Assembly: GCA_001599975.1 (NCBI GenBank)
Contig: BCIO01000007.1
Coordinates: 213,229-277,228 of the forward strand
DNA length: 64,000 bases
Direction of reading: 5' to 3'
Source: Cystobasidiopsis lactophilus
Lineage: Eukaryota; Basidiomycota; Agaricostilbomycetes; Agaricostilbales; Chionosphaeraceae
This document shows positions 15,052 to 48,543 of the stretch, one piece after another. Under the pieces are notes generated by a model, which worked only from the letters and a program-made list of their open reading frames with translations, had not been told where the DNA came from and searched no databases. The first letter of the stretch is position 1; every line of letters starts with the position of its first letter. The position numbers and the translations under genes are program-made.

Positions 15052-15079
15052 CGGTTCCGCTTTTTCCGCCTTTTCCGCC
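15052..15079. promoter_or_regulatory. CGG-N11-CCG inverted repeat in the ADH/ALDH divergent promoter
   Basis: CGG at 15052-15054 and CCG at 15066-15068 flank an 11-base T-rich spacer; a second TTTTCCG follows at about 15071-15077. The site lies in the 153-base gap between the two divergent start codons. It resembles a zinc-cluster factor site and recurs in other catabolic promoters of this window. Confidence 0.45.
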
Positions 15080-15139
15080 CCCTTCGTCCTTTCGCCGACG
15101 ACCGATAGTGCCGCACCCACCATCCAGAGCCACTACAAC

Positions 15140-17202
15140 ATGCCCGAATACGAGACCAGGCACTACATCAACGGAGCCTACGTTGCGTCGAAAGGCGGCG
15201 AGACGTTCGAAGTGTACAATCCCTACGTCAGCCTCTCGTCGGCTCCCCTTCGCGTGCTCTGCTGAGTGGCGCTCCTGCAGACTGAGAAGCTGACTGCCAA
15301 AGTCTCGGCCGCCCAAGGCGCAGATGTCGATGCCGCTGTGGATGCCGCCGTCAAGGCCCAGCCTGCGTGGGCCGCCGTGAGCTCCTCTCGCCCATTGGAG
15401 CTACCGAAGGCGAGTGCAGCAAATGCTGATTAATCGACATAGATCCCCGCCCAAGAAAAGGCTAAGCTCTTCAATAAATTGGCCGACGCGTTCGAGGCCA
15501 GGGCGGAAGAGCTCTCGCTCTTGGAAGCCGTGACGATGGGCGCTCCGCTTGAAACTGGAAAGCCCATGGTCGCTGGCACGGCAGCAGAGGTCTCTCGCTT
15601 TATGGGTGCTCTCTGCTTGACCAGCAAATTTGGCTACACATGTACGTTCGCTTGGTGCCCGTGGTAATTGGCCGCGTCTCACGCCTGGGCCAGCAACCGA
15701 TACGTCTGGCCAGTTCTCGTACACGCTCAAGCAACCGTAGGTGGCAGATCTTTCGCTGCAGACATTGCTCAGTTGCTCGTTCAGTTACGGCGCCATCGGC
15801 GTGATCATCCGTAGGCTCCTCAGACGGTTGCTGTTGCGGGACTGGAGCTGACTAGAAGGCTCGCGGTTCAGCTTGGAACTCGCCCGTCGCCTCACTTGCT
15901 CTGAAGTGCATTCCAGCCCTTGCCGGTGCGCTCGACTTACTTCTCAGCGCAGGCTGATACTCACGCGGAAATTCCAGCCGGAAACACCGTCGTTCTCAAG
16001 AACAGCGAGAAAGCTCCACTGGCAACTCTCGTCGTTGGCAAAATGCTGGTGGATGTCGGATTCCCTCCCGGTGTATTTAACGTCCTCAGGCAAGCAAGAG
16101 CTTTCTCGCGTTTAGAAGCGGCCCTTATTTACACCCTTCACGTCTTCAGCGGCCTTGGCGGCACCGCAGGAGCCGCCTTGGCCTCTCACATGAAGCTTCG
16201 AAAGATTTCGTTTACCGGGAGCACCCGCACTGGCAGGGTCATCATGGTGGCCGCAGCCCAGAGCAATCTCAAGGCCGTCACGCTCGAGCTGGGCGGAAAG
16301 AGCCCTGTGCTGATTTTCGAAGGTTCGTCTCTGCTTCCATTTGTTGATTGTTAGTCTTTCTGAGCGACCCGACTCGCAGACGCTGATCTGGAGAAGGCCG
16401 CCAAGGCTTGCGCTGCTAGCATTCACTGGAATACCGGCCAGATTTGCGCCGCCCACTCTCGCGTCTATGTGCACAGCAGCATCAAGAGCAAGTTCATCCC
16501 ACTGTACACGGCGGTGCTCAAGTCAATGGCCACTACCGGAGACCCGTCGCTGAGCACTACTGGACAAGGCCCTGTGGCTGAGTGAGTCTGGCGAGCTCCG
16601 ATCGCGCACCTAGATTTCGATGCTGAGGAGCATCTCAGCGCTGCCCAATTCAAGTCCATCATGGCGTTCATCGATGAGGCTAAGAAGGAGGCCAAGCTGG
16701 AAACTGGTGGCGAACGCATCGGCAAGGAAGGCTTCTTTGTCGCGCCTACGGGTGAGCGCTTTGTTCGCTTCTTTATCTCCTGCCAGCCCCTGACGGCCGT
16801 TAAGTCTTCTCGGACGTTGCTGTGGACGCTCGAATAAACAAGGAAGAGGTTTTTGGACCCGTGGCCGTCGTGCACACCTTCGAGACTTTGGACGAAGCCA
16901 TCGCCCTCGCCAACGACTCTGAATACGGCCTCTCCGCTGGCGTCTTCACCAGGGACCTCAATCGCGCCCTCAAGGTCGCGGCTCGGCTAGAAAGGTCTGC
17001 CTCATACTTTCGAAACGCTGCCAGGACCGTCTCTGATCCCCCTGTTTGTTTCAGCGGTGGCGTGGGCATCAACAGGTGCTCGACCATTTCGACGGACATG
17101 CCTTTTGGCGGGGTCCGACAGTCTGGTTTGGGCCGCGAGCTCGGCAAAGATGCGCTGGAGCCTTACCTCGAGGTCAAATCGGTCTTGGTCGATATGTCTT
17201 AA
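15140..17202 (+). CDS. Aldehyde dehydrogenase
   Basis: Oxidises an aldehyde to the carboxylic acid with NAD(P). Start ATG at 15140 (MPEYETRHYINGAYV). After introns the ALDH core is plain: FPALPVRSTYF region, IPAGNTVVLKNSEKAP, ISFTGSTRTGRV, the glutamate motif TLELGGKSPVLIFE, the catalytic cysteine in WNTGQICAAHSRV, NKEEVFGPVAVVHTF, and the C-terminal [17 protein letters not shown] join GPVA to AQFKSIM through an intron beginning GTGAGTCTGG and ending CATCTCAG. The catalytic cysteine context (GQICAAHSR rather than GQVCxAxSR) is slightly unusual. About eight introns. It is divergent from the alcohol dehydrogenase at 14986, its probable partner. Not a C-terminal peroxisomal protein (ends VDMS). 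Confidence 0.88.
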
Positions 17203-17393
17203 TCTGTTTGCACTCTAAACGGTCTGCCACGATCATTATTTTGCCCATAGAGCCGTGGCCTTGACAGAAAGTCTCCATTTCAATCGTGACTTGATCTCAA
17301 TCCTGACGTGACCTCAATCGTGACTTGAGGTCGATGTCCCGCAGCATTCCTTTCCGAGCACTTCTGGTCTGCAACTCTAGTGATTGCATCAGG

Positions 17394-18537
17394 TTACAGC
17401 ACAGAACGGTGGATGATCCGGGCGCCGGCTTGGGCAGTGGGGAAGATGAGCGCTTCCGCCACTTGGACATGGCTTGGCCGGCTGGCGATCCAGACCATCT
17501 GCTCTGCAATGTCCTTGCCGGTCAGCGGCACCATGCCAGAGTACACGGCCTTTGCTTGGTCGGCATCTCCACGGAAGCGGTTGACCGAAAATTCGGTCTC
17601 CACCAGGCCTGCAGCCCAGTGTGAGCGGGCATGGCCAAAGACTGAAACATATGTTTACCTGGCATAATCAAGGACACGCGAATGGGGGTGGACACGAGCT
17701 CTTTCATGAGAGTTTGCGTAAAGGCGTGAGCGGCGTACTTGGATGCCGCGTAGACCGAGCCGCCTGCATACGTTTCTTGCCCTGCTACACTTCCGACGTT
17801 GATGATACTGCTCTGCGTGTCAGTGTCCCTGAAATATTAAGGCGTCGCCACGCACTGCCCGCTTTGGCGCTTCTTCATCTCTGCCCGGCGAGCATCAAAA
17901 GGTCTATCGCAGGTGAAAGAGAGGCAATGCAACGCACGTTTTACGACTTGTTGTGTCAGACTGATGAGGCCAAAGACGTTCAACTCTGATCAAACGACCG
18001 CGGGATGAGGAGAGGCAGAGGCACTGGCCATGCAATGGCAGCTTACCGAACATGGCCACCATTTCCTTTTCGTCGAGGTCTCCAATTTCTTCGTTGCCTC
18101 GGCCCATGCCTGCATTGTTGACGAGGACGTCGATGGGCGGTAGAGACCGCAACTGCTCTCCGAACGCCGTGGTCTGCGACAGCTGAGAGCAGTCCATTGC
18201 CAGACAGATGATCTGGCCGCCGTGATCGCTGCCAGCTGAATGACCCACTGGTCAGTCGCGGGCCTGGTGCGGTATAACATCTGCTGAATTTCAGACTCGC
18301 CTTGGCGGTTGGCTGCTCGAGCGAGTTCGGCCACCTCTTGCAACGCCTCTGCTCTGCGGGCCGTCACAATCACATTGGAGCCCGCTGCTGCAAAGGCAAT
18401 GGCCTGGCAACCGCATTCAGCGGAGTTGACCCGGCATGGGGAGCTTGTGAACGCGCCGTGGCTTTGCCAATCCCTGCGCTCGCGCCTGTGACCAGCACCG
18501 TCTTGTCATGCAGCAAGTCGAGGGACAAGAAAGACAT
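17394..18537 (-). CDS. Short-chain dehydrogenase, YdfG/YMR226C-like
   Basis: NADP-dependent oxidoreductase of the classical short-chain family; relatives oxidise 3-hydroxy acids such as L-allo-threonine and serine. Start ATG at 18537 (MSFLSLDLLHDKTVLVTGASAGIGKATA) gives the TGASAGIG cofactor loop. Later exons encode VIVTARRAEALQEVAELA and VDVLVNNAGMG (NNAG motif), then the active-site YxxxK exon, and a C-terminal exon with VETEFSVNRFRGD and QMVWIASRPSHVQVAEALIFPTAQ ending at 17394; the last segment is a hallmark of this subgroup. Five or so introns. It is divergent from the Old Yellow Enzyme gene across 178 bases that hold a CGG-N10-CCG repeat. Subgroup assignment is from recognised sequence pattern, substrate is inference. 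Confidence 0.82.
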
Positions 18538-18620: not shown

Positions 18621-18636
18621 CGGCAAAACTTTTCCG
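18621..18636. promoter_or_regulatory. CGG-N10-CCG inverted repeat in the SDR/OYE divergent promoter
   Basis: CGG 18621-18623 and CCG 18634-18636 around CAAAACTTTT. It lies in the 178-base gap between the start codons of the short-chain dehydrogenase and the Old Yellow Enzyme. The spacing matches the perfect palindrome at 42820. Confidence 0.5.
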
Positions 18637-18715: not shown

Positions 18716-20143
<1,428 letters not shown>

Positions 20144-20391: not shown

Positions 20392-20410
20392 CGGAAAAGG
20401 GCCTTTTCCG
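20392..20410. promoter_or_regulatory. Near-perfect palindrome CGGAAAAGGGCCTTTTCCG upstream of SSADH
   Basis: Nine-base arms CGGAAAAGG and CCTTTTCCG around one base, 115 bases before the succinate-semialdehyde dehydrogenase start. An extra CGGAAAT half-site sits immediately upstream (20383-20389). This is the longest arm of the family of sites described here. Confidence 0.55.
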
Positions 20411-20524: not shown

Positions 20525-22705
20525 ATGTCCGGAATTCCCAGCCAGGTGCGGCGAGGCACACTGTTCAAAATGTCTGCCAGCTGCTCAGTTGCGTCTTCGA
20601 CAGATCAAAGACCACGGCCTTTGGAAGAGCACCAGCTTGGTCAACGGCGAATGGCTGCCCACCACCAAGTCCGCGTTCCCCGTCTCTGGTGAGTTCTCTC
20701 AGCTCCGACCGACGCTAGAGCGCAAGGCTTATGCACCATGCGTCGCACGCCAGACCCTGCGAACGGCAATGTCCTCAGCCAATGCTCGGACCACGGCCAG
20801 GAGGAAACAGAAAAAGCCATCGAGTATGCGCACGCCGCCTACAAAAAGTGGGACGCTGCCACAGTCAAGGCGCGTGGCGACGTTCTCGCCAAATTGAGAG
20901 ACCTCTGCCTTGAGCACATGTGAGCTGCTTCTTTCACCTGAATACAGCTTGCAAACACTCAACGCGCGCGCACACAGTGATGACATGGGCGCCATCATCT
21001 CGCTCGAGGCGAGTTTGCGATTCACCTCTTGCTCTCACCCTCTCACGGGGTTGCTTCTGTAGAACGGCAAGAGCCTGGCTGAGGCCAAGGGCGAAGTGCA
21101 CATGTCCATCGCCCAGCTCGACTGGATGTCGGGCGAAGCTGTTCGCGGCTATGGCGACTTTATTCCCTCGGCTCTGCCCGGCGTGCGCAACGTTGTCATC
21201 AAGCAAGGTGTCGGTGTGGCTGGCATTGTGGGTCCCGTTCGCCTAGAGCTGCAGGCCCTTTGCTAATCCTCGGTCGGTACAGATCACGCCCTGGAAGTGG
21301 GTGTCTCTCCGATACGAGCCTGCACGATAAGTGTTGATGGTGCTATGCTTGCCACAGCTTTCCTCTCTCCATGATTGTCCGCAAAGTCGCGGCTGCCTTT
21401 GCTGCTGGTTGTGCTGTGGTAGTCAAGGCACCCCGAGAGACGCCTCACTCCTCTCTCGCTTTTGGCGTGCTGGCGGCTCGCGCTGGCTTGCCCAACGGCT
21501 TGTACAACGTCATTGTCACCAACCGGTCCAGCGTCGTCGGCAAGATTCTCTGCGAACACAACCTCGTGCGCAAGATTAGCTTCACCGGCTCGACTCCCGT
21601 TGGCAAAACCCTCATGGCGCAAGCCTCTACCTCGTTGTCCAAGTGCTCTTTTGAATTGGGCGGCAACGCGCCTTTGTGAGCCCACGCTCGCCAGGTCTTG
21701 GAAGTCATATTCATCATGGTCGGTTCAGCATCGTGTTTGATGGTGCCGACGTCTCGAAGGCTGTCGAGTCGGCGGCGGGCGTCAAATTTCGCTGCAGCGG
21801 CCAAGTCTGCATTGCCGCAAACCGCCTGCTCGTACAAGAGGGTATCCATGACCAATTCGTGAAAGAGCTTGCCGAGAAGATCAAGTCATTCAAGATGGGC
21901 CACGGTCTAGGTGCGCTCTTTGAACGCAGACGTGTTGCAGCCAATCTGACCCAGAGCAGACGACGGCGTCACCCACGGACCCTTGATTAACGCCAAGGCG
22001 GTGGACAAGGCCCACGAGCATGTCCTCGACGCGACTCAGAAGGGTGCAAAGCTGGTCGCTGGTGGCAAAAAGATGGGCGGGAATTTCTACGTGAGTGCAT
22101 CCAGTCTTGTTTGGGCCTGCTAAAATGTGCTATAGGAACCCACCATTCTCACGAATGTCAACACTTCGATGCTGATGGCGGATGACGAGACCTTTGGTGC
22201 GCTTTCGCAGCTGCCCATTTCTGCTTCAGTCTCTAACTGAATCTTCTTCGACAGCTCCTGTTGCCGGCATCTTCAAATTCAAGACAGAAGAGGAAGCCAT
22301 TGCTCTCGCGAACGAAACCGAGTATGGCTTGGCCGGATAGTGAGTCTGCCGATTATATGCCTCCGCCTCGCTAACACTCCTCTTCAGCTTCTTCTCCAAG
22401 GACAATGCTCAGGTGTGGCGTGTTGCCGAGGCCATCGAAGTCGGGATGGTCGGCGTCAATGGGTAAGCTTCTCGCAGTCTGTTGGTCTTTTGAGGACGCA
22501 TCTTATTGCGCTATACAGGGCCAGTGTCTCGCAAGCGTGTTCACCTTTTGGGGGTCTGAAACAGAGCGGAGTAGGTGCACAGTGTTATAGTTCGCAACCA
22601 AGCTGACGCGCAATGCTCTGCCTCTCCCAGTTTGGTCGCGAGGGCTCCAAGTACGGAATGGAAGAGTTCCAGAACGTCAAGCTCATCGCCGTCAACATCC
22701 TCTAG
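20525..22705 (+). CDS. UGA2: Succinate-semialdehyde dehydrogenase
   Basis: ALDH-family enzyme oxidising succinate semialdehyde to succinate with NAD(P), the last step of the GABA shunt. Start ATG 20525 (MSGIPSQ), then [19 protein letters not shown] after an intron. Visible blocks: [35 protein letters not shown], the SSADH-type [20 protein letters not shown] (split by introns), [22 protein letters not shown] (catalytic glutamate), [20 protein letters not shown] (catalytic cysteine), [24 protein letters not shown], and [14 protein letters not shown] at the end. About eleven introns. The two-cysteine neighbourhood and PWNFPLSMI favour SSADH over general ALDH. Next to it on the opposite strand is succinyl-CoA:3-ketoacid CoA-transferase, so both feed or use succinate. 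Confidence 0.85.
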
Positions 22706-22938: not shown

Positions 22939-25112
22939 CTACTCCATGCTCTTCAGATTGGGAGATACAACAAAGCTGGCGCCCGTCTTCTGCTTGATCC
23001 CTTCCACATCCACGCCGGGTGCATGCTCGAGCAGCGTTAGGCCGCCTTTCTCACGATCTACTTCGAACACAGCCTGCCGCAGCCGCGTGAGATAATGCAG
23101 CACGACCTGGTCCGCACCTACCAGCTCTGTAATGATAGTTGACACGACTTTGGAGCCGGTGAGCGGCAATGTGCACTGTTCGAGAATTTTGGGCTTGCCG
23201 TTCTTGTCAGTGTGGTCGGTCAGGACAACAATCTTGGTTTGCGAAGGCGAGGAAACCAGGTCCATGGCTCCTGTGACCTGCCATGAGGTTAATCTGACCG
23301 AAACAAGAGCCGGACCCACCTCCCATTCCTTTGACAAGCTGCCCCCGCCAATCAATCTTAATACGCTGCTAATTGACGCCGGTCATACCTTGCCCGGAAT
23401 CATATCTATCGCACAGAATGAGGATTTTGTTGCTATATTGGAGATTGGCTCACAATTCGCCAAATTGCCAGCTGCATCAACTTCTAGAGCTCCGAGCATC
23501 GAAACATCAATGTGACCACCACGGATCATGGCAAAGCTTTCTGAGCTGTCGAAGGTCGAAGCTCCAGGTACCATGGTCACTTGGCAGGCCATTAGTGGAC
23601 GCCACGGGAAACCAAGCGCCATCGTACCTGTCTCTTTGCCAGCGTTCAACAGATCCAAATCCACCTGGTCCTTGGTCGGGTAAGGACCCATGCCGAGCAA
23701 GCTGAGCAAAAGGGTCAGCGAAATGTCAAGACAAGATCTGCACTTAGCTAACCCGTTCTCCGACTGAATCCAGAGTTTCACCGAAGGCTCGAGGTAGTTT
23801 GGGGCCAAAGTGGGTATACCGATGCCCAGATTGACGTAGGACCCGTGGGTGAGCTCCTTGGCCGCGCGCTTGGCAATGCGAACACGGCGCTGTGCGGCTG
23901 AAGATGGGTCGGATTCGGATGGAACGTCTTCGGCTTCGCGCAGTGTCTCAAACTCGAGTCTCTTGGGCAATGTAGCAGGCACGATGCGATCGATGAAGAT
24001 GCCCGGCAGGTGGACTGCGGTGGGGTCGATTTCGCCATTCTCGACAATCTCTTCAGCCTCAACAATCGAGACGGTGGCGGCCTTTGCCATCGGTATTCCG
24101 AAAGCCTTGGTCGTGCCTCTACAAAAGGGCAGACATCATGAGAGGCTCGGCGTGAAAGAAATGAGAATGGCATACCTGAAAACGCAGTTGCCGGCCTTGT
24201 CCACTTTCCAAGCGCGGAGGAAGGCAAAGTCGCCCTTGATGGCCTTCTCTAGGCTGTACAGCCGGCCATCAAACTCTTTGGTCTCGCGCTCGTCGCCGCG
24301 CTCGAGGATGGTGAGCTTGCCCTTCTCGTCCTTGGGTCCGTAGCGCTTTGGAATGTCACCGGTCTGGATGGCAGTGCCTGTCATGGACAGGATTATTATA
24401 TAGTCATCATCAAGCGGACAAAGGCGACAGACCAACGCCAGTCGGGGTGTAGAAGCCTGGGATACCAGCGCCGCCAGCACGAAGCCTTTCCGCCAGCGTC
24501 CCTTGCGGACAGAGCTCGATAGACAGGCTGCCTTCGAGATACTTTTGCTCTAGCGTCTTGTTGTTGCCCACAAAACTCATGATCATTTTGGTGATTTGCC
24601 CAGACTTGACCACTGTTGGGCAAGCCGTCCTCGCATTAGAATGGGAGCCCAGTGGCAGAAGCGCAGAATACGCACGCGGGGCTAGACCGCCACCAGCAGC
24701 CGCACCTGCAGCTTTGTGAGCTCACTGGCTTGACGGCCTGCAACAGCCACTAACCGGCATTGTTGGAAACGCCAGTAATGTCTTGCACCTCTTTACGTTG
24801 GGAAAGGGCGTCAATGAGCGTTTCTTGAAAATTGAGTCGCGATGTCAATGGGTGCCGGGCCGTCAATGGTAAATTTCGCACCTGCCACTCCGCTCCAGCC
24901 AAATCCTGCAGCTGATGTCTAACAGGAGCTTCTTTTCACACAAGAAGGAGCTAACCAGCCGACAAGAGAACGGTGCCCGACTGGATGTCGGCCACCGCGT
25001 CTGCTGCAGACGCAAACAGCTTCTCGGGGCGCCGACGCGATCCTTCTGCGGTCCTTCTCCCCGCCGCAGTCGAATACAGGCGAGCACTCCTCCATAAGAT
25101 GCAGCGCTGCAT
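22939..25112 (-). CDS. Succinyl-CoA:3-ketoacid CoA-transferase, mitochondrial
   Basis: Transfers CoA from succinyl-CoA to acetoacetate or another 3-ketoacid, allowing ketone-body-type acids to be used; in mitochondria. Start ATG at 25112 ([20 protein letters not shown]), an arginine-rich serine-containing leader typical of mitochondrial import, then [20 protein letters not shown]. Two small introns lead to [19 protein letters not shown]. Further blocks: [40 protein letters not shown], then subunit B part [28 protein letters not shown] (the catalytic glutamate motif of the family is in this Q-S-E-N-G), [30 protein letters not shown], and the C-terminal exon ending at 22939. Alpha and beta halves are fused as in eukaryotic SCOT. 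A CGG-N9-CCG repeat lies 63 bases upstream. Confidence 0.9.
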
Positions 25113-25174: not shown

Positions 25175-25189
25175 CGGAAAACGATTCCG
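25175..25189. promoter_or_regulatory. CGG-N9-CCG inverted repeat upstream of SCOT
   Basis: CGGAAAACGATTCCG, arms CGGAA and TTCCG, lying 63 bases before the SCOT start (minus strand). An extra ATTTCCG half-site follows at 25197. Confidence 0.5.
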
Positions 25190-36868: not shown

Positions 36869-37169
36869 CTCGTCTCTAACAGCACGCAGCAGCTCGGGGC
36901 TTATTGGCGCTGGGGCATGCAACAACACAAGGGCAATAAAGTTCGCGCAAGGTGGTTGGAGCACAGAGACCCTTGTTCCCCAGTGTGCCGGGGCTTTGGT
37001 GGCGCTTGCTGGAAATTTGGGTTGCTGTCGATGCAGGTTTGAGGATTGTAGTAGCTCAACGCAGCTGCCTGAGCCGGAGGGGCGGAGGCAGGGAGGGGGA
37101 GAAAGCTTCGCAAAAATTCCACCACTGCCAACCGACCCCACAAGACCATGTCCCCGAACGAATTCAACA

Positions 37170-38773
37170 TCAGCTGTTGGCCGCCCGCCGCTTCTTTTTG
37201 GGCGCGGGAAAGACCAAGGGGATCTTGAGCTCGGCCATGGCGGCCTTTGCTTTCCCCCGCCGCACCATATTGCCCTCGCTGTCCTCGACCAGGTTGGACG
37301 CCGCGCCGTCTCCCGGTGGGTAGGCGATCGTGCAGCCCAAGCTCTTGTCTGGGAGGCAAAGGATCAAGCTAAGTCGCGTATCATGGACTACGGTAGGTTT
37401 GGCACACTCACAAATCTCACGAATGCTGCAAAAATGGCTTCAGCCTACATCCCAGGACGTAATGGAGAAGCAACACTCACGCTTTGGGATTCATGTTCAG
37501 ATCGTTCGCAATCTCTGACACCGACACCGAGAACTGGTCGAAGTGCAAGGCGATGACCAGCGCCTCGGCCCGCGCCTTGCTCTTCATGAAGTCCGTCAGC
37601 TTCTTTCTGTAAGACCAGCACAAGGTCAATGTCAATAAGGTCTTGGCATAAAGGGGAAGGGCGGCCTACACTTTGGGGTCCCTGGTAGCCTCGGTGAAGC
37701 GCTCCAACAAGATCGCCTTGCCTTGCGGCCTGATGCCGGCGAGCGACTTCTCGAGCATCCTAGAGTCCTTAGCCAGCGCGATGGTGAACAAGCAGTTGAG
37801 GTAGATGAGCAGTCGGAGCTTGTTCTTGGGCCGCTTCTTGAACGGGTGCTGGGTGTTGTTGAAGAGCTCTTGGAGGCGCTTGTTGACGAACTCGACGTGC
37901 CAGTTGGGGAGCATCTGCACCCGGTCTGCTTGGCTGGCGGCGTTCATCAGCTCGTCCGCTGGCATGTGGTCCAGCACGTTGTCCTCGGTCAGGTCGGACA
38001 GCTTGTACACCTCGGCTGCGTCGATGGCGGCCTTGTCTGCTGGAGGGTTCGGGTTGGCTAAGGCGTCCAACGCTTGCAGGTCCTCACTGGTGGGCATGGT
38101 AGCCAGATTGGCGGCCAAAGAAGCCATGAGCTCGGGCTGGTAAGACTGCAAGTCCTTGCCCTCGACATCGAGCTTGTTGCGCTCTTTGGCGCGGATGTTG
38201 CCCTTGACTTTTTTGGTGCCAAAGGCCATGCCTAAATCGGCTCTCTGGACGCTCATGGTGCCCGCAGCAGGAGCCTCGTTGGTGGCGGAAACGCCGTAGT
38301 GGGCTTTGAGGGCGGGTTGGACGATGTGCAGAGGGGCGGGCAGGAGCGTGGCTATCTTCAACCGCTTATCCACAACGGCCACCATGTACCTGATACTCTT
38401 TCATTAGCGCAAATAGCCAAAGGAATGACGCCGCCACACACTCGCAGCTGTAGCTTTTGTCCACCGTCGTCGGCTGCTCCAGCTCGTCCTCGCCGCTCAG
38501 CCTAGCGCCGACGTGGTTGTGCGACTGCCAATAAGCCTTCTTGTCCTCGCCCATGACCAAGGACGACCGCTTCTTGCTGGCGCCGCCGCTTGAGTAAAGC
38601 TGGAACAAAGTCGACGTCGGCACTTCGAGCGCATTGGCCGACATCAGCAGCGCTTCCGGGCCAGCCTTGGGCGTCTCCTGCAGGGTGCAAGCGACCAGCG
38701 TAGGTGCAGTACTGCCACTGGCGCCAGACTCATGGCTTGTCTTGCGCTTCTTGGAAGGCAAGTCGACCTGCAT
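37170..38773 (-). CDS. RPA49: RNA polymerase I subunit A49
   Basis: Subunit of RNA polymerase I that with A34.5 supports initiation and elongation on rDNA in the nucleolus. Start ATG 38773 (MQVDLPSKKRKTSHESGASG), then VPTSTLFQLYSSGG, ARLSGEDELEQPTTVDKSYS; next exon YMVAVVDKRLKIATLLPAPLH and the linker-region MAFGTKKVKGNIRAKERNKL. The C-terminal tandem winged-helix part includes LPNWHVEFVNKRLQELFNN, NKLRLLIYLNCLFTIALAKD and SLGCTIAYPPGDGAASNLVE, ending PKKKRRAANS at 37170. Fits the A49 domain order with family-typical length of about 450 residues. The downstream SET2 gene follows on the same strand within a few hundred bases, and the NIPA-type gene upstream ends only 80 bases before its start. 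Confidence 0.88.
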
Positions 38774-38852
38774 ATTTTTTTGGTGTTCGCAGACAAAACA
38801 AAATTTTGTGCGGAGTCATGTGGAATCAAGCAGCATGCAAGGTTTGGTAAAT

Positions 38853-40368
38853 TCAGCCTCTATAGCGTCTGGCTGTTGAGCTCTCATATAGCGTCAACAG
38901 CCGAACCCCAGCGAAGACCGAAAGGCAGCCAGCGATGAACAGCAGCACTTCCCTGGCGGTGGCGTACTGTGCGTGCAAGTTCTTTCTATGAGAAAGGTCG
39001 ACGGTCTCAAGGTAAGAACGAACGCACCCGAAAGTCCCCAAAGACGACGCTCGAGGCCACAATGGCGGCCAGGGTGAAGAAGACAAAGTTCGTCGGCACC
39101 ACTTCCTGTAAGTCACTATCCTAAAATCCATTAGGCAGTAAAAGGGGAAGAAGAGACTTACCCTGCTGTCAAACCGTTGGAGGGCTTTGTTGAGGAAGTT
39201 GACTTGGAGAATGGCGGAGGAAATTAGCACGGCGAGGATGAAGTAGGTGACCGGTACGGTGAATCTGCAAGGCCGCAAATACTAATACTATCGAGCCCTG
39301 TATAACACGGCTAAAGAAGGACACCGCTTACACTTTTAGAAACATATCGGATAGAAAGCTGGAGAGCGCTTTCGTTGACAGAACGGTGTAGGAGCCTGGT
39401 GCCATTTCCCCTTTAGTTTCTCAATGGTGGAGAAAGAGCGAACGTCACACACCAGCCAACGCACACAGCCCAATGTCGACAAGGATGAAGCGCTCGCCGT
39501 AGGGGCCACGAGAAAGAATGGCCAGGGCTCTACAAGCGACGTCACTCTCATCAAGCGCATCGCGCACGAAGAAAAGGAGATGCACTTACAGTGCTGATGG
39601 CAGACTAAGACTAAGATATAGAATACAGGGCCATTTGCCTAAGAGGTAGAGAAAGCGGTCCGGGTCGAGCTGTTGTTAAGGATCAAGACGAAATGCCAGA
39701 AGGCATACAGGAGAGGACGTTACCAACCTGCTCTTGTCTAGAGGAAGAAGATGCCACGACTAGCACAACTCCAAGCACAGCCAGGCCAACTCCCCACTGT
39801 AGGCGCATCGCCTTCACTCGGGACACCTCTCGATCATAGGAGAGCACACCACCTACTAGATCCTTTGCGGCGAACTTTTCTTTGAGCATGTAAGGCGCAA
39901 TAAAGCAGTTGGCGATCAGCGCCACCACGCCCAACGGAGCGACCAGCGAAGCCGGCGCGAACCCGTAGCTGGTAAAGTTGCCCAGCTCGCCAATGGTCAT
40001 CAAGCCGATGCCGGCCCACCACAGCTTATTGGTCAAGAACACTTTGCCTTCATGCGGGAAGGCGGGGGAGCTGGTCGCCTGGCCATTGGGAGGCGACTCG
40101 GACGAAGGGGACTAATTTAGAAGGATCAGCGCGTTCGTTCTTCTCTCAGCCTCTCGGTAGGAGCCAGGGACCCACATTAGCCTCTAGTAACGGTTCTCGC
40201 TCTCCATTTTCAGCTCGAGCGTGTAAATTGCTGCATTGAAAGCGACTAGCGTAAGCAAAAGCTGCCGCCTTCCACGACAAATGTAGCCGCACTTCTCGCT
40301 CTTGCTCCGAATCCGGGTATGCGCCAGCTTCTGGACGTTCAAAGCTAGGGCAATGACCAAGTTGCCGG
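38853..40368 (-). CDS. NIPA-like magnesium transporter (DUF803)
   Basis: Multi-pass membrane protein of the NIPA family, whose members transport Mg2+. The first exon I can place begins at a CAG acceptor at 40368 with GNLVIALALNVQKLAHTRIR, the family's first helix; the true start codon lies in an exon further upstream that I could not find. Next exons give NGEREPLLEAN, then LTNKLWWAGIGLMTIGELGN and FTSYGFAPASLVAPLGVVAL (the GEGGNF/YGFAPAS-type signature), a glutamine-rich break, AILSRGPYGERFILVDIGLC, SYTVLSTKALSSFLSD, VTYFILAVLISSAILQVNFL, NKALQRFDS and NFVFFTLAAIVASSVVFGD. The stop is at 38853. About nine helices fit the family. Partial only at its 5' end. Confidence 0.82.
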
Positions 40369-40870
40369 CTGTTTGTCACTCCGAATCAGCCTCCTGCGAC
40401 CTCTGCGGTGAGTCCTTTTGTGGCGCTCGCCTGTGCAGATGGCAACGCCCCAGCTTGAACTTTCGGTCAGATTTTGGCTAGGTAGCTTGACGGATCAGCC
40501 GACCCACAGAGTTCTGGCGTGACTGGTCATGGCATCTTGTCCGCCTGCATCGCTGTCTCGTCTGGAGAGAATGCAAGGCATCAAAAAGGCGAAAATTGCC
40601 CGCGCTCCCACGTGGTTACAAGGGCGATCTCTTTGGCGGCAATCTCGCCTCAGAACGCCACCAAATACAGCAGAGCGTTGCACCAGCTGTTCTCTGGGTT
40701 ATCATATCCTCTTATGCCAAGCTCAAGCTCAAGATACCACAGGTTCATTGACACAGTATCCGATGTTTGAATTGCAGAGTACGGTGCCGTCGCCAACAGC
40801 CAAACCGGTGGGTGCAGACACAACCTCTCAGAGGATGCTCTTCAGCAGATCCTGGAGAGCTGTAGTTCTG
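40369..40870. other. Intergenic, possible 5' exon of the NIPA gene
   Basis: About 500 bases between the NIPA-like gene and the 3' end of the monooxygenase. The missing first exon of the NIPA gene is expected here on the minus strand. A long plus-strand open frame crossing it is not supported as a gene. Confidence 0.35.
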
Positions 40871-42738
40871 CTAAGAAGCTGTGTTGCACAGTTTGAAAAG
40901 GGGACACGAACTGGTGCGGGAAGTGGGGTGGGCGACGGCAGCGGTCGCGGCGATCACGGCAGCAAGGCTGAGCGCTCGTCGACCAAAGAAAGCGAGGCTG
41001 GCGTAGACAGGCCAGAGAAGGGAGCCGCCTTCGAGGTCGAAGTCGCCGAACTTGGGAATCAGCGTCTCGAGCCAGTACGAAGAGGCGTATCCGGGGTAGG
41101 ACGCGGTGTTGCGGCCCCACTCGTTCAGGTACCAGTTGGAGCAGCCGGCCTCCCACACCATGTCCTTGAGACCGATCTGGACTTTGGCGGCGTTGAGATC
41201 TTCGGCAATCGGCTTGACAGTGATTTTAGAGGCGCGGCCGGCCACCAGCGGGTCAATGAGGGCACGCCGAATGTACTCGCACTGGACCTCTGCCGTGTAA
41301 ATTACCGAGTTGTGGGCCGGGAAAGAGTTGGGTCCAACTGTGCTCAGGAAGTGAGACCCCAAAGCACGCGGAAAAGAAAAAGGGGGCGACCAACAGACGA
41401 TGCCACTGCAGGAACAGCAGCTTAAGTAAAGGGCTATTCCAAAGACACGGATGCGCTTACAAGTTGGGAAAGTGGGACACAAAGGTGCCGTGGTACGCCT
41501 GGGCACCGCGGGTCTCCTTCCAATGCGCGGAAAGCGATTTGCCGTCGTCGCCAACGATTTGCAACGGCGTGAGGAATTCTTGCACCTTGTAGCCAGTGGC
41601 GAGGACAAGGGCGTCGACTTCGCGGCGCTGCCCGGAAGTCGAGATCACAGTCTTGCCCTCGATGCGGTCGATACCTTCAGGAATGAGCTCGATGTTGGGC
41701 GCGTGCAAGCTGGCGAGGTATCCGGGGTCAAAGACGCGCCGTTTGCAGCCGAGAGGGTAGTTGGGCGTCAAGATCTTGTGGTACTTTTCCGGAGCAGTGG
41801 CCTTCATGTACGCCAACGATTCGCCCTCGACCTTGGAGCGGACGACCTGGGCCTTGGGGCTGGCCAAGTACGTCGTAAGAAGCGCATCGGTGTCTACGAA
41901 GAGCCAAAAGCGGTAGAAGCGCATAACGCCAGGCACCCAGTTGAAGATGAAGCGCTGGAGCGGCGTGTAGAAGTGGTTCGGCCGAGGATGGTACCACTGC
42001 GGGGAGCGAGCAAACTGCGTAATCTGGGCGCCGGATTCCACCATGGAAGGGATGAACTGCGAGGCCGAGCAGCCGTTGCCAACGACCGCAACGCGCTTGT
42101 TGCTGTAGTCGTAGTCGTGGTTCCAGCGCGCCGAGTGCCAGATCTCGCCTTCAAAGGTTTCATGGCCGGGAATGTTGCAGTCTTTGGGAATGGAGATGGC
42201 GCCGACGCAAGAGATGAAGACGTCGCACTGGCGGGTGTACGACTCTTCGGTCCGGAGATCTTTGAAACGAACGACCCAGTGCTGCTTCATCGAGTCCCAG
42301 AAGGCACCCAAGCAGGAAACGCTGCACAGGATGTGGGGGCGCAACTCGAGCTGCAAATGACACTCTGAATTGAATTCCACCAGTAAGGCAGCCAGCAGCG
42401 CTTACCTTGTCGATCGTCGAGTTCATATAGCGCTCGATTTCAGGCTGATCGGCTAGCTCTTGGGTCCACTCGGGGTTGAGGTTGAACGAGAAGGAGTAAA
42501 GGTGCGAGTAGACGTCGCAGCCGCACTTCGGGTACGTGTTCAAGTGCCAGACGCCGCCTGGATTGGCCGCCTGCTCGTAAATTTGAAAGCTGTCGACCTT
42601 GGCGACGTGCTTGAGGTTGTAACCCATGGCTGCAGGAAAACCCGCGGTCAGTGGCGGCAGCGGTCTGCTTTGCAGAAGGGGCAACCTACAGATGCCACTG
42701 GGGCCGGCGCCGATAACGATCACGCTTGGAGAGGGCAT
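40871..42738 (-). CDS. Flavin monooxygenase, Baeyer-Villiger type
   Basis: FAD/NADPH enzyme predicted to insert oxygen next to a ketone, giving an ester or lactone. Start ATG 42738 (MPSPSVIVIGAGPSGI), the FAD loop GAGPSG, spliced to SMGYNLKHVAKVDSFQIYEQ. Then GGVWHLNTYPKCGCDVYSH, the Baeyer-Villiger fingerprint FEGEIWHSARW (F-x-G-x-x-x-H-x-x-x-W), and the NADPH loop VAVVGNGCSASQ. Later ALVLATGYKVQEFLTP and, in the last exon, GPNSFPAHNSVIYTAEVQCE. The C-terminus has a hydrophobic stretch (LSLAAVIAATAAVA) that might anchor it in a membrane. Four exons. It is divergent from an alcohol dehydrogenase across 227 bases that hold a perfect CGG/CCG palindrome; the ketone could come from that dehydrogenase. 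Substrate unknown. Confidence 0.85.
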
Positions 42739-42819: not shown

Positions 42820-42835
42820 CGGAAAAGCTTTTCCG
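42820..42835. promoter_or_regulatory. Perfect 16-bp palindrome in the BVMO/ADH divergent promoter
   Basis: CGGAAAAGCTTTTCCG reads the same on both strands (CGG-N10-CCG). It lies in the 227-base gap between the divergent start codons at 42738 and 42966. Confidence 0.6.
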
Positions 42836-42965: not shown

Positions 42966-44999
42966 ATGGCCGAACAAGGAGCAACAATGCAAGCGCTGGT
43001 GCTCAAGGGCGCACACAAGATCGTGGTGCAGGACATGCCGATGCCTGTGGTCAAGGCAAGCTGGTCGCAACGGTTGTTTGGCCCACTGACTGTGGATCGC
43101 AGGAGCCAACCGACGCCGTCGTCGAGGTTGGTTATACCGCATCAACGATTGTGCTTTGTCTGACAAACTCGCAGGTCGAGCACACTGGACTGTGCGGTTC
43201 GGTACGCTGCAGAGACGTTTGACAACGATTTGCGCTCTCAACTTTGCTGCTTGACTCGGCCCGCAGGATTTGCACTGGTATAGAGGACACCAGGTGTGGG
43301 ATGGCCGCGACATTGTGAGTTGCAGACGTGCCCCGCAGCCGCGCGCCCCTCTCAGAAGGTGGTCTGCTAGATCCTTGGACACGTTGGTCAAACCCGGCAA
43401 GCACCATTGGAATCGACTTGCTGATCTGACCCCGTCCAGGAATTCGTGGGCCGAGTCTCCGCCATTGGCAGCGCCGTCACCCAATTCAAAATGGGCGACC
43501 GCGTGGTGGCTCCTTTTACCTGGTCTGTCGCTTTGAAACCGCCGCCACTACGGTCCGAGGATTCAAACGTTCATTCCCAGTCAATGCGGCGCTTGCTTCT
43601 ACTGCGAGCGTGGAGCAAGCTCGCGATGCGACGTGGGCCCTTCTCCCGGTCGCATGACCGTCCGGCTCTCACGGTGCCATGTCCTTCGATCAGAGCGTCA
43701 AAGTGTATGGCACAGCCGCCTTTGTCGGCGTTCAGTGCGAGTACGCCTTTGTCGCCATGGCAGATTCCACCCTGGTGCACGCTCCGCCTGGTGTGTCGCC
43801 ACAGACTTTGATATTGATGGGTGCGTGGGGTGTTCTCGCCTTCTGCCCTCTGTTTTCTCATCTCGTTGCAACAGCCGACATCTTTCCAACCGGATTTTGG
43901 ACCGCTCGCAATGCCTTCCGGTTGCTGGGCGAGGAAACGAAACGCAGCGAGTCGGTCTGCTTGGTGGCAAGTCTTCAGCCCCTTGGCTTCCAAAGCCACC
44001 AGCTGACACGTCCTCGACCTCATTCCAGATAGGCTGTGGTCCCGTCGGTCTCTGTGTACGCCCAGCGACATTGCAGGTTAGACAAGGAGCTCACCAGCTT
44101 CATCTAGGCCATCACCGCTGCGACGCACTACTTCGGCAAGGTGTACGCCATGGACTTTGTTCAGAGCCGTAGAGGTCAGTCATTGCACTTTTGCTGCGCC
44201 CTGGCCCGGCTGACACGGCCAACAGATCAAGCCAAGCGTCATGGTGCCATTCCCGTGACCCCGCAGGATCTGGAAAAGACCATTATGGAAGCCACGAACA
44301 ATCGCGGAGCCGACGCCTGCCTTGAGGTGGTCGGCAACGCTGCGGCTTTGGACACCGCTTTCAAGTTGGTTCGGCCTTTTGGCGTAAGTGGCGGCTCATG
44401 ACTGCGCGTATCTCTTTGCTGATATCGTGCCGACCTGAAGGCTGTCTCATCGTGTGGTTCGTCCTTTATTCTGCGACAGCGCCACGACGCCGCGACGCCG
44501 CGACGCCGCCGAGCCTAAACCTTTTCGTCGCAGGTGTACATGCCGGAGCAAGCCACGAGGGCGAGCCTTCGATCACGCGTCAAATGCTCTACAACAAGAA
44601 CATCCGTTTGCGTATGTCTTTACCTCTGCGCTACGCAGGCCTTTTCCTCACCAAGCGTAGAAATGGGACGTTGCCCCGTTCGGGCAGTTTTCGACGAGGC
44701 GCTGGCCATGCTGCAAGAGCACGATGAGCTGTTCCAGTCCTTTGTCGAGCATATTGTGCCTCTTTCCAAAGGGCCCGAATTTTGTGAGCAAGGTGCTTGC
44801 GCGCCTCCGCCTTGACTGACGCGCTTTGGCAGACAAAGATTTTGAGGCACAAAAAATGTAAGCTCGTCGTGCAACTGCGCCGAACAACAAGCTGATTCTG
44901 AATACGCTTTCAGCATGAAGACGGTGGGTGCCTCTTTGAGGCGTCAGATGATTCAGTGCCCACTCACCAGTTTGGCAGATTTTCGTTCCTGGTTCTTAG
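42966..44999 (+). CDS. Zinc alcohol dehydrogenase, FDH-like MDR
   Basis: Medium-chain dehydrogenase of the group that includes formaldehyde- and secondary-alcohol-type enzymes; likely oxidises an alcohol to a ketone or aldehyde. Start ATG 42966 (MAEQGATMQALVLKGAHKIV). Spliced blocks: VEHTGLCGSDLHWYRGH (catalytic zinc cysteine and D-L-H), ILGHEFVGRVSAIGS (H-E), DRVVAPFTW, then QCGACFYCERGASSRCD with four structural-zinc cysteines, QCEYAFVAMADSTLVHAP, GCGPVGLC cofactor loop, DQAKRHGAIPVTPQDLEKTI, RGADACLEVVGNAAALDTAF. The 3' end uses tiny exons (a 10-base ATGAAGACG-type exon near 44914) to finish KTIFVPGS at 44999. About a dozen introns. Divergent partner of the Baeyer-Villiger monooxygenase. 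Confidence 0.82.
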
Positions 45000-45179: not shown

Positions 45180-46377
45180 CTATGGCTGCTTGAGCTTGAG
45201 AAGTTTGGACAAGAACTCGTCGCGCTGTTTGGCGAGATCCACTGGGCCGAGTTGTTTCAGCTCTTCCTTGACACTCTCGACAAGTTTTTGCCGCCATTCT
45301 TCGGACGCGCTTGCTGGGTCAAAGGCGTGTTCTCGCATATCGGCCGCCCACAGACCGGCTGCCTTGCCGACGTGCGCCAGATGGTGCTTAAAGCCCTCGA
45401 TACCGTTGCCGCCACCGCCGAGGACCCTGGAGGTATAACGTTCAGCCTCGAGTGCCTTTTAGTAATCGGGACAGGGTACTTTGTAAGGAACGGGCCTTGC
45501 AACGCCCATCTGAGCGCAATGCTGTTACTGACCACGGCGTCTAGGAGGTGGTCTGGGCAATGGCTCGGCAGAGAAAGTAATTGGTGTGCTAACCAATGTC
45601 AGCGGCGCTGACCACGCCACGTGCCACCAGGCTGTACGCTTCGTGGACTAGCGCGGCTTGAAGGCGGTTCGCAACGAAACCGGGGCATTCGTTCTGCAAG
45701 ACGACGGGCATTTTGCCGAGCTGGGTATAGAAATCGACGGCGGCCGTGATTGCTTGCTGCGAAGTTTCGCTATGTGGAACCACTTCCACGAGCGGCAGAA
45801 GATGCGGCGGATTGAAGGGATGGCCAACGAGAACGCGCGCTGGGTTCACGCGGCAGCCAGACACAAACTGGGAGCTGGGAAGGCCGGAAGACGAAGATGC
45901 CAAGATAGTGTCCTTCACAGTGTTGGCATCAAGCATGGCAAAGGTTGTGGTCTTGTATTCCTTGGCTTCTGGCCCATTCTGCGGTCGGCAGGTCAGGGCC
46001 AGCTGGCATGTGATAGACCGCGAATGCGATGGACCAACCTCTTGGACAAAGTCGACCGTGTTCAGGTGCGACTCGATTGAGTCCACAAAACTGAGTCGGT
46101 CCCAAGGTATAGACTGAGAGGTGCTGGGCGCAGCGCCAACTTGCTGAAGAGCCGGCCAGGCTTGCTCGACGTAGGCCCGAAGGCGCTTTTCAGCACCCAC
46201 AGCAGGGTCTGCGCGTCATCAGAGCGTGCACACCGCTTGCAAGTGAAACTTGCCTGTTGCACAGACGGCGTGCCCTTTGGCCAGCAACAGCGCCGTCCAG
46301 CTCGCGCCGATGACTCCGGTGCCAATCACGGCCACCCGAGCCTCTTTCAGCCCCGCGCGGGCAAGCGTAGCAGACAT
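45180..46377 (-). CDS. 3-hydroxyacyl-CoA dehydrogenase / L-gulonate dehydrogenase-like
   Basis: NAD-dependent oxidation of a 3-hydroxy group, on an acyl-CoA or on L-gulonate (lambda-crystallin type). Start ATG 46377 (MSATLARAGLKEARVAVIGT), with the Rossmann loop VIGTGVIGASWTALLLAKG. Next exons: VEQAWPALQQVGAAPSTSQ, SIESHLNTVDFVQE, LASSSSGLPSSQF, the catalytic region ARVLVGHPFNPPHLLPLVEV (H-P-F-N-P), VVLQNECPGFVANRLQAALV (N-R-L-Q at the dimer interface), then a C-terminal exon of charged helices ending LLKLKQP. Length about 320 residues, as in the single-domain family. It is divergent (155 bases) from the lactonase gene, so the two share a promoter. In this neighbourhood a role in oxidising a ring-opened hydroxy acid is plausible. 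Confidence 0.82.
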
Positions 46378-46450: not shown

Positions 46451-46465
46451 CGGAAGCCTTTTCCG
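46451..46465. promoter_or_regulatory. CGG-N9-CCG inverted repeat in the HAD/lactonase divergent promoter
   Basis: CGGAAGCCTTTTCCG, arms CGGAA and TTCCG, between the divergent start codons at 46377 and 46533. Confidence 0.55.
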
Positions 46466-46532
46466 CCCCGCCTGCCAGCCGTGCGACGACCTGCGTCAAC
46501 CAACCAGGCCCTTGACAGCTAGCGACGGCACG

Positions 46533-48340
46533 ATGACCGGCGTGACGAGCGATGTAGGGCCGAAGAGGCATACCGCGCGACCTCTGCACCCCTCAGAAGT
46601 CTGCCCGTACGTCGGCGCCGCACATCCACAGTCGTGCGTTGACGTCGGCCTCTCAGAGTCGGCACCAAAGTGTGGATGCTCTCGTTGGGCTACATGGAAT
46701 GCGACGACGCCTACTTGCTGCCTGGCGCCAACGGCTGGAGGGAATCATTAGATGCGGCAAACCCTCCTCGCCGGCATCGTGAGTGCAAGCTGATTCGCAC
46801 CGTGTGTGTGTGTGTCTGCTAACAACCTGCCAGGCACCCTGCCCATGTATTGCTTGCTCATCGAGCACCCTGCGGAGGGCCTTATTCTCTGGGAAACGGG
46901 CGCAGGCAAGGCATGTTGCCTTTGATTTCGCGCGCATCTTTCGACTACTTGTCTCAACATCAGCCCGTTTAGGATTATCCAAAGCTGTAAAAGCGCTCCC
47001 GCAATCAAGCCTTCTGCGACGCTAAATTATGGTTGCGCTTCTTGCCAGATGGGGCGACGAGCGGATGGACGTCTTTCCGCGGGTGAACTACGATCCAAAG
47101 CAAGAGCTCGAGGCCGCGATCGCTTCCACCGGCCATTCCATCAAGGATGTGGCGGCCGTTGTCTTAGGCAAGCTATGCTGTCTCTTGCAGGCCTCTCTTT
47201 GCTGACCGACTGACCGCCTGGACAGGGCATCTTCATTTGGATCATGCGTGAGCCACTTGTACCACATCATGTGCCGGATGAAGACGTTTTGCTCATCAGC
47301 GGAGGGCTGGGGTTGTTTGCTGGAACCAACATCCCCGTTTACTGCCACGAAAAGGAGCTCAAGACCGCCCTTTTCTCCTGCGCTACTGCAAGTCCTCTTT
47401 CGTCTGACTACGCCCGCAGTCTCCTTAGATGCGCTACAGGGTCGGGACTACGGGTACGTGCGATCGTTGCCGTTGGCCGTCAGCTGCCAATGGGCTCTGT
47501 CTCGACAGACTCTATTTGGATCACTACATGCGGTTTGTGAGGCTTTGTGGCTGCATATGTAGCCTTTTGTGCGCTGATGACTTGGCAGGACATCAATTGG
47601 AAAACCTTTAACGTCTCCGAATTGGACTTTGGCCAAGGTAGAAGCGAATGGTGATCAGGAAGGACAAGCGCTAAACGATGGAATCATGCAGGGCTCACGC
47701 TCCATCATTTGCCCGGTCATTCGGGTGGGCGCCGTCCCTCCATATCTGTCATCCTAGCAAACTGAAACTGCTTGTCTTGCGCGGTCCTAGACGGCCTCTG
47801 TGGACTGCAAATCAAGTAGGTCGGCCCACTGACCGCCAGATGCCCCCCAGCTGACAGTCTGCAGCTGTGGGATCGCCTCTGTTGGCCAGATGTATAGCAG
47901 CTGTCTGACCCAGTGCTTCAGTGGCACACCAGGGCACATGTAAGCCTTTCACTGGAAAGAAAAAAACGCAAAGAGTAGAGACTGAATTCGCATTGCAGAC
48001 ATCTTCACGAGCGACCTTTACCACATTAAGGAGAACTGGGAGAGCGTGAGCGACCTCTCTATACCGCCGATGCTATTACGGACCCTTCTGCCTCCAGGGA
48101 TCCACCCAAGGCTGGCTGCTCCGAGATTATAAGTGCGTGGTTGACGACTAATTGCACTCCCTGGCTGACGCCTGCTTCAGCGCTTGGCAGGATTCGCACG
48201 CCAAAGTCGAGAGGCTAGTCCGTCGGACAGGAGCCAAGGTCGTTAGTGAGTCGTTGCCTTTGCAGCCTATTCGACGTCCGCCTGAACTGCTTCCTGCTCA
48301 AGTGGGCCACGACAACGAGCAAGTCACCGTCCCATTCTGA
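46533..48340 (+). CDS. Metallo-beta-lactamase-fold lactonase
   Basis: Zinc hydrolase resembling N-acyl-homoserine lactonases; predicted to open a lactone ring. Start ATG 46533 (MTGVTSDVGPKR), a first intron then VWMLSLGYMECDDAYLLPGA. Later exons: TLPMYCLLIEHPAEGLILWE with TGAGK, VNYDPKQELEAAIASTGHSI, and the metal motif GHLHLDHAGGLG (H-x-H-x-D-H, split by an intron after DHA). Then IPVYCHEKELKTA, LTLHHLPGHS (third metal histidine), GTYIFTSDLYHIKENWE (bridging aspartate), and a last exon with MGHDNEQ (final histidine). Stop at 48338-48340. About twelve very small exons. All metal ligands are present, so the enzyme should be active. It fits downstream of the Baeyer-Villiger monooxygenase, which makes lactones or esters. 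Confidence 0.8.
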
Positions 48341-48528
48341 GGTCTCCGCGCTGATTTGCTCGCTACAGCGTTTGCAACCAGATTTGGGCTGAGCAAAAAG
48401 GTGAACCGTTGTCGTAACTCCCACACTGAGACTATAAATTGCCATGTCACGACGTCTTGAACTCGCTTGCTTGTCGGCACCACCGGCGCGGATGAATCTA
48501 ACTCAGCAAATTGTGGAGAAGCTGGGGC

Positions 48529-48543
48529 CGGGAGCTTTTTCCG
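48529..48543. promoter_or_regulatory. CGG-N9-CCG inverted repeat upstream of the AtuA-like gene
   Basis: CGGGAGCTTTTTCCG, 84 bases before the start codon at 48627. The right arm (TTTTTCCG) matches the other sites; the left is CGGGA rather than CGGAA. Confidence 0.45.

Follow-up and report, generated by a model that had tools for sequence, protein, structure and literature searches.

A CGGAAAA half-site with a variably spaced CCG partner marks the promoters of two catabolic gene blocks near a Zn2Cys6 gene

Results

Gene content of the two blocks

The window analysed here, a 64-kb stretch of DNA, contained two blocks of genes encoding predicted catabolic enzymes, with a Zn2Cys6 transcription factor gene at the edge of block 2 (Table 1). 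By gene models, the interval between the blocks extended from 29063 to 40871 (11.8 kb), in agreement with the spacing of about 12 kb given in a preliminary description. An SSU1-like protein (Pfam SLAC1) was encoded at about 4.8–6.1 kb in the window, and a tRNA scan found none.

Block 1 comprised alcohol and aldehyde dehydrogenases, short-chain dehydrogenases, an ene-reductase, a CoA-transferase and a transporter. In block 2, the best matches of the BVMO-like protein among solved structures were phenylacetone, steroid and cyclohexanone monooxygenases. Its start was set at 42738, where the nucleotide-binding motif begins; another model ran farther upstream. Type I Baeyer–Villiger monooxygenases carry the signature FxGxxxHxxxW(P/D), and the corresponding motif was recognised by eye in the model (FEGEIWHSARWN), with N instead of P/D at the last position. 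The gene previously labelled 'HAD' proved to be a 3-hydroxyacyl-CoA dehydrogenase (Pfam 3HCDH_N), and the route proposed below would include it, along with the CoA-transferase and the AtuA family protein.

Zn2Cys6 proteins are recognised by the pattern C-X2-C-X6-C-X5-12-C-X2-C-X6-8-C near the N terminus. The protein encoded at 51249–54095 showed this pattern at residues 35–61 (canonical C6; Pfam Zn_clus 1.7e-9, 38.1 bits vs. a cut-off of 21), together with the fungal-specific middle homology domain (Pfam Fungal_trans 3e-16). Gal4-type regulators also have a coiled-coil dimerisation segment that follows a linker; here, a segment 21 residues past the last Cys, LRMLEDRCARLQQAL, looked heptad-like as judged by eye. 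Among solved structures, PUT3 matched the DNA-binding domain best (E 2e-6), with the alignment confined to the zinc cluster (residues 32–68). A Pfam scan of 28 protein queries from the window yielded this protein as the sole Zn2Cys6 match.

Table 1. Genes and promoter elements of the two blocks, in window coordinates.
Feature	Position	Strand	Basis or context
ADH1, zinc alcohol dehydrogenase	13446–14986	-	Gene model; Pfam ADH_N, ADH_zinc_N
Site 1, CGG-N11-CCG	15052–15068	.	Between ADH1 (-) and ALDH (+); 65 and 71 bp to ATGs
ALDH, aldehyde dehydrogenase	15140–17202	+	Gene model; Pfam
SDR1, short-chain dehydrogenase	17394–18537	-	Incomplete model; Pfam
Site 2, N10	18621–18636	.	Between SDR1 (-) and OYE (+); 83 and 79 bp to ATGs
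OYE, old yellow enzyme family ene-reductase	18716–20077	+	Pfam Oxidored_FMN; best solved match 5v4p, NADPH dehydrogenase 3, 3e-77
Site 3, N13	20392–20410	.	5' of second aldehyde dehydrogenase (SSADH-like); 114 bp to ATG
Second aldehyde dehydrogenase, named SSADH in the preliminary description (subfamily putative)	20525–22705	+	Gene model; Pfam
SCOT-type CoA-transferase	22939–25112	-	Pfam CoA_trans; start inferred
Site 4, N9	25175–25189	.	5' of SCOT (-); 62 bp to inferred ATG 25112
SDR2, short-chain dehydrogenase	25494–26658	-	Pfam
Site 5, N9	27013–27027	.	Between SDR2 (-) and MFS transporter (+); 89 bp to MFS ATG, 354 bp to SDR2 ATG
MFS sugar-type transporter	27117–29063	+	Pfam Sugar_tr
BVMO-like flavin monooxygenase	40871–42738	-	Pfam FMO-like; best solved match phenylacetone monooxygenase 1w4x, 5e-43
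Site 6, N10, perfect palindrome	42820–42835	.	Between BVMO (-) and ADH2 (+); 81 and 130 bp to ATGs
ADH2, zinc alcohol dehydrogenase	42966–44900	+	Exons partly hand-joined, end approximate; Pfam
3-Hydroxyacyl-CoA dehydrogenase, lambda-crystallin type	45589–46377	-	Pfam 3HCDH_N; incomplete model, hand-joined pieces searched
Site 7, N9	46451–46465	.	Between 3-hydroxyacyl-CoA dehydrogenase (-) and lactonase (+); 73 and 67 bp to ATGs
MBL-fold lactonase, AiiA/GcL-like	46533–48390	+	Exons hand-assembled, end approximate
Site 8, N9	48529–48543	.	5' of AtuA; 83 bp to ATG
AtuA family protein	48627–51096	+	Pfam AtuA 5e-144
Zn2Cys6 transcription factor, candidate regulator	51249–54095	-	Pfam Zn_clus and Fungal_trans
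Ninth element, CGGAAAAGTTTTCT	54167–54180	.	Half-site without CCG partner, 5' gap of the Zn2Cys6 gene; 71 bp to ATG 54095

Composition and placement of the promoter element

The preliminary description had listed eight inverted CGG-N-CCG repeats with A-rich then T-rich inner flanks in the 5' gaps of the two blocks. All eight were present letter for letter with the spacer lengths given, and the perfect palindrome at site 6 was confirmed on the sequence; site 3 was nearly so, with perfect 9-bp arms and an odd base at the centre. The bare inverted repeat was rejected as a signal over the entire window: CGG-N9-13-CCG is uninformative because it occurred in 110 copies in the window (23, 20, 26, 17 and 24 for N9 to N13), with similar numbers at other spacings (11 to 32 copies per spacing over all N0-20). 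The constant part was instead one half-site, CGGAAAA (= TTTTCCG), found in 8/8 sites, and the opposite arm was often barely more than CCG. The motif that did carry information, CGGAAAA-N5-9-CCG (CCG at N9-13), occurred at precisely eight places in 64 kb, the same eight as described. Counted over both strands, there were 10 matches, with two palindromes counted twice, compared with a mean of 0.73 and a maximum of 3 in shuffled sequences (n = 100).

A CCG at N9-13 accompanied 10 of the 12 gap copies of CGGAAAA (8/9 gaps) and none of the 7 copies elsewhere. From the CCG frequency, a partner was expected by chance for 13.7% of copies, as against the 10/12 observed in the gaps (p 1e-7, both arms of each palindrome being entered separately). 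A further TTTTCCG half-site adjoined site 1 (15071–15077), and a weaker element, CGGGAAAAGGAGCCG, was seen near site 5 on the minus strand (27043–27057).

The distance from each element to the closest inferred start codon downstream was 62–114 bp. For the four divergent gaps that were short, the site centres were 3, 2, 24.5 and 3 bp off the midpoint (random placement, p 0.0012), a test made without the fifth, long divergent gap (SDR2|MFS), in which the site was 132.5 bp off. For site 6, the ADH2 start at 42966 was used; an alternative lies at 42987.

The ninth element, a half-site at 54167 in the gap of the Zn2Cys6 gene itself, had been overlooked in the preliminary description. It shared 12 identical bp with part of the SDR1|OYE site; a 12-bp match to some site was also found in 46 of 2000 random intergenic segments, all from one place (31115). 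The 170-bp SDR3|SnoaL gap near the regulator was considered as a possible tenth site; it lacked CGGAAAA and contained just CGGAAA with a direct CGG (only CGGAAATGCGG at 55790). This gap and the SSADH gap had one 12-mer in common.

Enrichment relative to control gaps

In a ranking that used neither the described motif nor the division into catabolic and control gaps, with gap boundaries drawn by the analyst, CGGAAAA ranked first among all 7-mers, both in a set of 18 gaps, where it was present in nine (p 2.5e-9, uncorrected for the 8192 7-mers), and in a set of 22 (p 1e-8). It was present in 9/10 catabolic or regulator gaps and in 0/8 control gaps (Fisher p 2e-4); this test was not blind, because the ten gaps were picked by gene function with the earlier site list already known. 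In dinucleotide shuffles of the ten gaps (n = 400), no 7-mer reached 9 gaps, the largest number being 7, seen once. Likewise, the A/T-flanked palindrome score was reached in 8 real gaps vs. at most 2 gaps per shuffle (n = 400).

The claim that the element is absent upstream of other genes was borne out within the window. CGGAAAA was missing from the eight control gaps, which included the 299-bp RIB1|F-box divergent gap, and no copy lay in the 17,662 bp that were intergenic by the models and outside the ten gaps; this figure takes in unmodelled coding sequence, and several of the control boundaries are approximate. It was also absent from an initial 12-gap control set, two gaps of which were arbitrary stretches at 29–31 kb; the RPA49 and SET2 gaps of that set were left out of the eight-gap set because their starts were uncertain.

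Discussion

A candidate regulon and its putative regulator

Inverted CGG triplets are the form expected for targets of Zn2Cys6 dimers. Within the window, the element was found at the putative targets but not at their neighbours, as would be expected of a single Zn2Cys6 regulon. Our preferred reading, probable though well short of certain, is that these elements act as operators in a single pathway-specific regulon of a dimeric Zn2Cys6 factor serving an oxidative ketone- or lactone-type route, the most likely factor being the one encoded at 51249–54095. From the sequence, binding of the element by this factor is plausible, and the half-site in its own promoter suggests that it may also control its own gene. 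A dimer, most likely of this protein, would place its first zinc cluster on the constant CGGAAAA and its second on the CCG 9–13 bp away, and from 62–114 bp upstream of the nearest start codon it would switch on transcription, in both directions where genes diverge. The earlier proposal of one regulon in two blocks was sustained in part: within the window, both blocks share a non-random element that the tested intervening and flanking genes lack. Fixed spacing is typical of many Zn2Cys6 dimers, and the varying spacing observed here (9, 9, 9, 9, 10, 10, 11, 13) weakens the one-factor reading because a rigid dimer should not tolerate it. Other points against it were the half-site at 54167 without CCG, the SDR3|SnoaL gap beside the regulator without the element, and the SDR2 start 354 bp from its site.

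There is a smaller but real chance that the elements are operators of a broader Zn2Cys6 factor encoded elsewhere, with the neighbouring factor being a target or unrelated. Fungal genomes encode many Zn2Cys6 factors, the neighbour's gap carries a half-site without CCG, as a target or a weakly autoregulated gene might, and no such element is present in the SDR3|SnoaL gap close by; however, the gene at 51249–54095 lies at the edge of block 2 and has a half-site in its own gap, and none of the other proteins among the 28 queries gave a Zn2Cys6 match. It is unlikely that CGGAAAA is a single asymmetric half-site of a monomeric or non-zinc-cluster factor, with CCG being a frequent by-product of GC-rich promoters. 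The half-site was constant in nine gaps while the spacing and the second arm varied, the ninth site lacked CCG, and Pho7 of fission yeast shows that CGG pairs are not obligatory for a Zn2Cys6 factor (PMC5559640), but the excess of CCG partners over the chance expectation in gap copies and their absence from copies elsewhere, with one perfect and one nearly perfect palindrome, argue against this reading. A general core-promoter element, apparent because short divergent promoters are compact, would fit the tight, centred placement but is disfavoured, and very improbable, given its absence from all eight control gaps (the RIB1|F-box divergent gap among them), from the SDR3|SnoaL gap and from the further 17,662 bp that the models left between genes.

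Comparison with known systems

The PUT3 site is CGG(N10)CCG, with inverted CGG triplets and a contacted spacer (PMC5729217). The Saccharomyces PUT3 proline regulon resembles the regulon proposed here in its inverted triplets and in providing the best match to the DNA-binding domain; however, N10 was found in only 2/8 sites, the other six having N9, N11 or N13, so that a PUT3-type fixed spacing does not apply, and the targets are not proline genes. In the Gal4-type family, CGG triplet pairs are direct, inverted or everted, with spacing variable across the family (PMC11534201). Gal4-type pathway regulons share the Zn2Cys6 and middle homology domains, the CGG pairs and the presence of one element at several catabolic promoters, whereas here the spacing varies within one site set, one half is extended to CGGAAAA and the blocks are 11.8 kb apart. 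The Aspergillus AmyR sites, CGGN8(C/A)GG and CGGAAATTTAA, include a similar CGGAAA half-site with an A-rich flank (PMC5468973), but the second AmyR triplet is direct, not inverted, and the pathway is different. For AtrR, CGG-Nx-CCG pairs of many spacings are described without a determined site (PMC5215518), and they settled nothing for the present comparison.

In terms of pathway rather than regulator, the carveol/carvone route of Rhodococcus erythropolis DCL14 proceeds via carveol dehydrogenase, a putative carvone reductase, a BVMO and a lactone hydrolase (PMC7794910); SDR/ADH, OYE, BVMO and lactonase here would give a matching series of reactions. The likeness is one of chemistry, the DCL14 route is bacterial, and the substrate here is a guess. 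The genes of the two blocks could serve to break down a ketone, cyclic or branched, or a terpenoid-like compound, which would be handled by alcohol/ketone oxidoreductases and the ene-reductase, converted to a lactone by Baeyer–Villiger oxidation, opened by the lactonase, oxidised to acids by ADH/ALDH and passed to CoA-linked steps.

Among the titles and abstract openings of the literature matches listed, there was no description of this motif with this gene set, and those joining CGGAAAA, Zn2Cys6 and promoter were apparently unrelated, judging from their listing entries.

Implications

This would be an ordinary kind of fungal gene control acting on an as yet unnamed pathway; what is unusual is that a single half-site stays constant while the distance to its partner varies. 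We tentatively suggest, as a possibility weaker than the regulon itself, that the operator consists of a rigid 7-bp half-site and a triplet at a flexible 9–13 bp, centred in compact bidirectional promoters, where a single dimer would serve two divergent catabolic genes, and that it coordinates an undescribed, split fungal (probably basidiomycete) pathway of ketone or terpenoid degradation. The element and its candidate regulator link some twelve enzyme genes across the two blocks and so delimit the genes likely to belong to a fungal BVMO/lactonase catabolic pathway. The promoters may provide an inducible, bidirectional set, and the constant half-site with its flexible partner poses a specific problem of DNA recognition by zinc-cluster dimers.

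Shared Element in the Catabolic Promoters

The preliminary description had reported CGG-N(9–13)-CCG repeats in eight 5′ gaps of two catabolic gene blocks and proposed a Zn2Cys6 regulon; all eight sites (table) were read as described. Across the whole window, the bare CGG/CCG triplet pair was common, with no excess at N9–13. At every site the constant arm was CGGAAAA and the partner arm was variable, being a full mirror at the BVMO–ADH2 and SSADH sites and approximately a bare CCG with little beyond at the SDR2–MFS, AtuA and ADH1–ALDH sites; the spacings were 9, 9, 9, 9, 10, 10, 11 and 13. CGGAAAA occurred 19 times in the window (100 shuffles: mean 9.7, largest 17). The ten gaps of the catabolic and regulator genes, 2,341 bp in total, held 12 of these copies, spread over nine gaps; the remaining seven were all exonic or intronic by the gene models. 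A CCG at N9–13 accompanied 10 of the 12 gap copies (13.7% expected for each) and 0/7 of the others, and in the window this combination was found at the eight sites only. Since two palindromes are counted by both arms and one extra half stands in tandem, the 12 gap copies amount to nine separate elements.

When every 7-mer in the 5′ gaps was scored without using the previously described motif, CGGAAAA ranked first over both 22 gaps (p = 1e-8) and 18 gaps (p = 2.5e-9); these p values are uncorrected for the 8192 7-mers ranked. No comparable word emerged from the eight control gaps by themselves (best 7-mer p = 1.5e-4), and none of the 7-mers attained nine gaps when the ten gaps were dinucleotide-shuffled 400 times. 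CGGAAAA was present in 9/10 catabolic/regulator gaps versus 0/12 controls, two of which were arbitrary stretches (p = 2e-5), and versus 0/8 in the corrected control set (p = 2e-4). The proposed regulon is well supported within the window.

Start codons of all genes were inferred from gene models and N-terminal family motifs, transcripts not being used. The sites lay 62–114 bp upstream of the nearest start; in the four short divergent pairs the other gene's start was 71–130 bp away. The site centre lay no more than 3 bp from the point midway between the two starts in ADH1–ALDH, SDR1–OYE and HADH–lactonase and 24.5 bp from it in BVMO–ADH2; joint central placement in these four gaps gave p = 0.0012 (ADH2 start taken as 42966 in both cases; SDR2–MFS left out). 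The SDR2–MFS site was asymmetric, 354 and 89 bp from the starts, and its gap held two extra weaker matches, CGGGAAAGCCAAGACGCCG at 26903 and CGGGAAAAGGAGCCG at 27043 (minus strand).

Coordinates of the elements and other features in the window (first coordinate for the eight sites)
Feature	Position	Remark
ADH1–ALDH site	15052	
SDR1–OYE site	18621	
SSADH (second aldehyde dehydrogenase) site	20392	
CoA-transferase site	25175	
SDR2–MFS site	27013	two weaker matches within 26903–27057
BVMO–ADH2 site	42820	
HADH–lactonase site	46451	
AtuA site	48529	
Ninth element	54167–54180	5′ gap of Zn2Cys6 gene
Zn2Cys6 gene	51249–54095	minus strand
SDR3–SnoaL gap	55699–55868	divergent; adjoins regulator
Partial match	31115–31126	outside both blocks
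NIPA-type magnesium transporter	39332–40000 (ends approximate)	between RPA49/SET2 and block 2; Pfam Mg_trans_NIPA; absent from preliminary description
Adjoining gene pair	8742–12926	similar sequence; F-box-like by eye
Region w/o confident gene model	29300–31900	GGAAG-type simple repeat ~29.7 kb

Candidate Regulator and Pathway Genes

The Zn2Cys6 gene product, in which Pfam recognises a C6 zinc cluster together with a fungal middle domain, is probably the regulator of these sites. Its zinc cluster best matched PUT3 among solved structures (2e-6), followed by LEU3, HAP1 and PPR1, all named among factors typically recognising CGG triplet pairs in an excerpt of PMC5559640. After a linker of 21 residues comes LRMLEDRCARLQQAL, heptad-like by eye; half-site spacing is generally set by linkers, according to part of PMC6080790.

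The ninth element, a CGGAAAA half-site missing from the earlier list, suggests self-control of this gene. It reads CGGAAAAGTTTT then CTCAG, sharing 12 bp with the SDR1–OYE element, which runs on into GCCG. This identity carries moderate weight because 46/2000 random intergenic 250-bp segments also matched one of the sites over 12 bp, all from a single place, 31115. The sequence there, CGGAAGCCTTTT, matches the HADH–lactonase site over 12 bp without its TTTTCCG end. The SDR3–SnoaL gap contained no CGGAAAA; it has the 12-mer GCGGAAATGCGG in common with the SSADH gap near 20383.

The window is intron-rich, fungal and 56.6% G+C, with N bases at ~30.6 and 31.5–31.6 kb. As a guess, its base composition and density of introns would suit a basidiomycete yeast such as Apiotrichum (A. 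mycotoxinivorans has 57.57% G+C according to PMC7416605). Genes were modelled with a small spliced-gene finder and named by Pfam (28 protein queries in total); two scanned pieces of the adjoining gene pair gave no Pfam match. The BVMO best matched solved phenylacetone, steroid and cyclohexanone monooxygenases, and the lactonase, a partly pieced-together query, has a metallo-beta-lactamase fold with matches including AiiA and GcL. The ene-reductase is OYE-type and the hydroxyacyl-CoA dehydrogenase (HADH) lambda-crystallin-type; two zinc ADHs, two ALDHs, SDRs, a CoA-transferase, AtuA and a transporter complete the set. The bacterial carveol/carvone route, as outlined in a section of PMC7794910, uses in turn a dehydrogenase, a putative carvone reductase, a BVMO and a lactone hydrolase; any substrate named for the pathway in the window would be a guess.

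The element illustrates well a type of control that is already known, and the points worth experiment are its flexible partner spacing and its central position in short divergent promoters.
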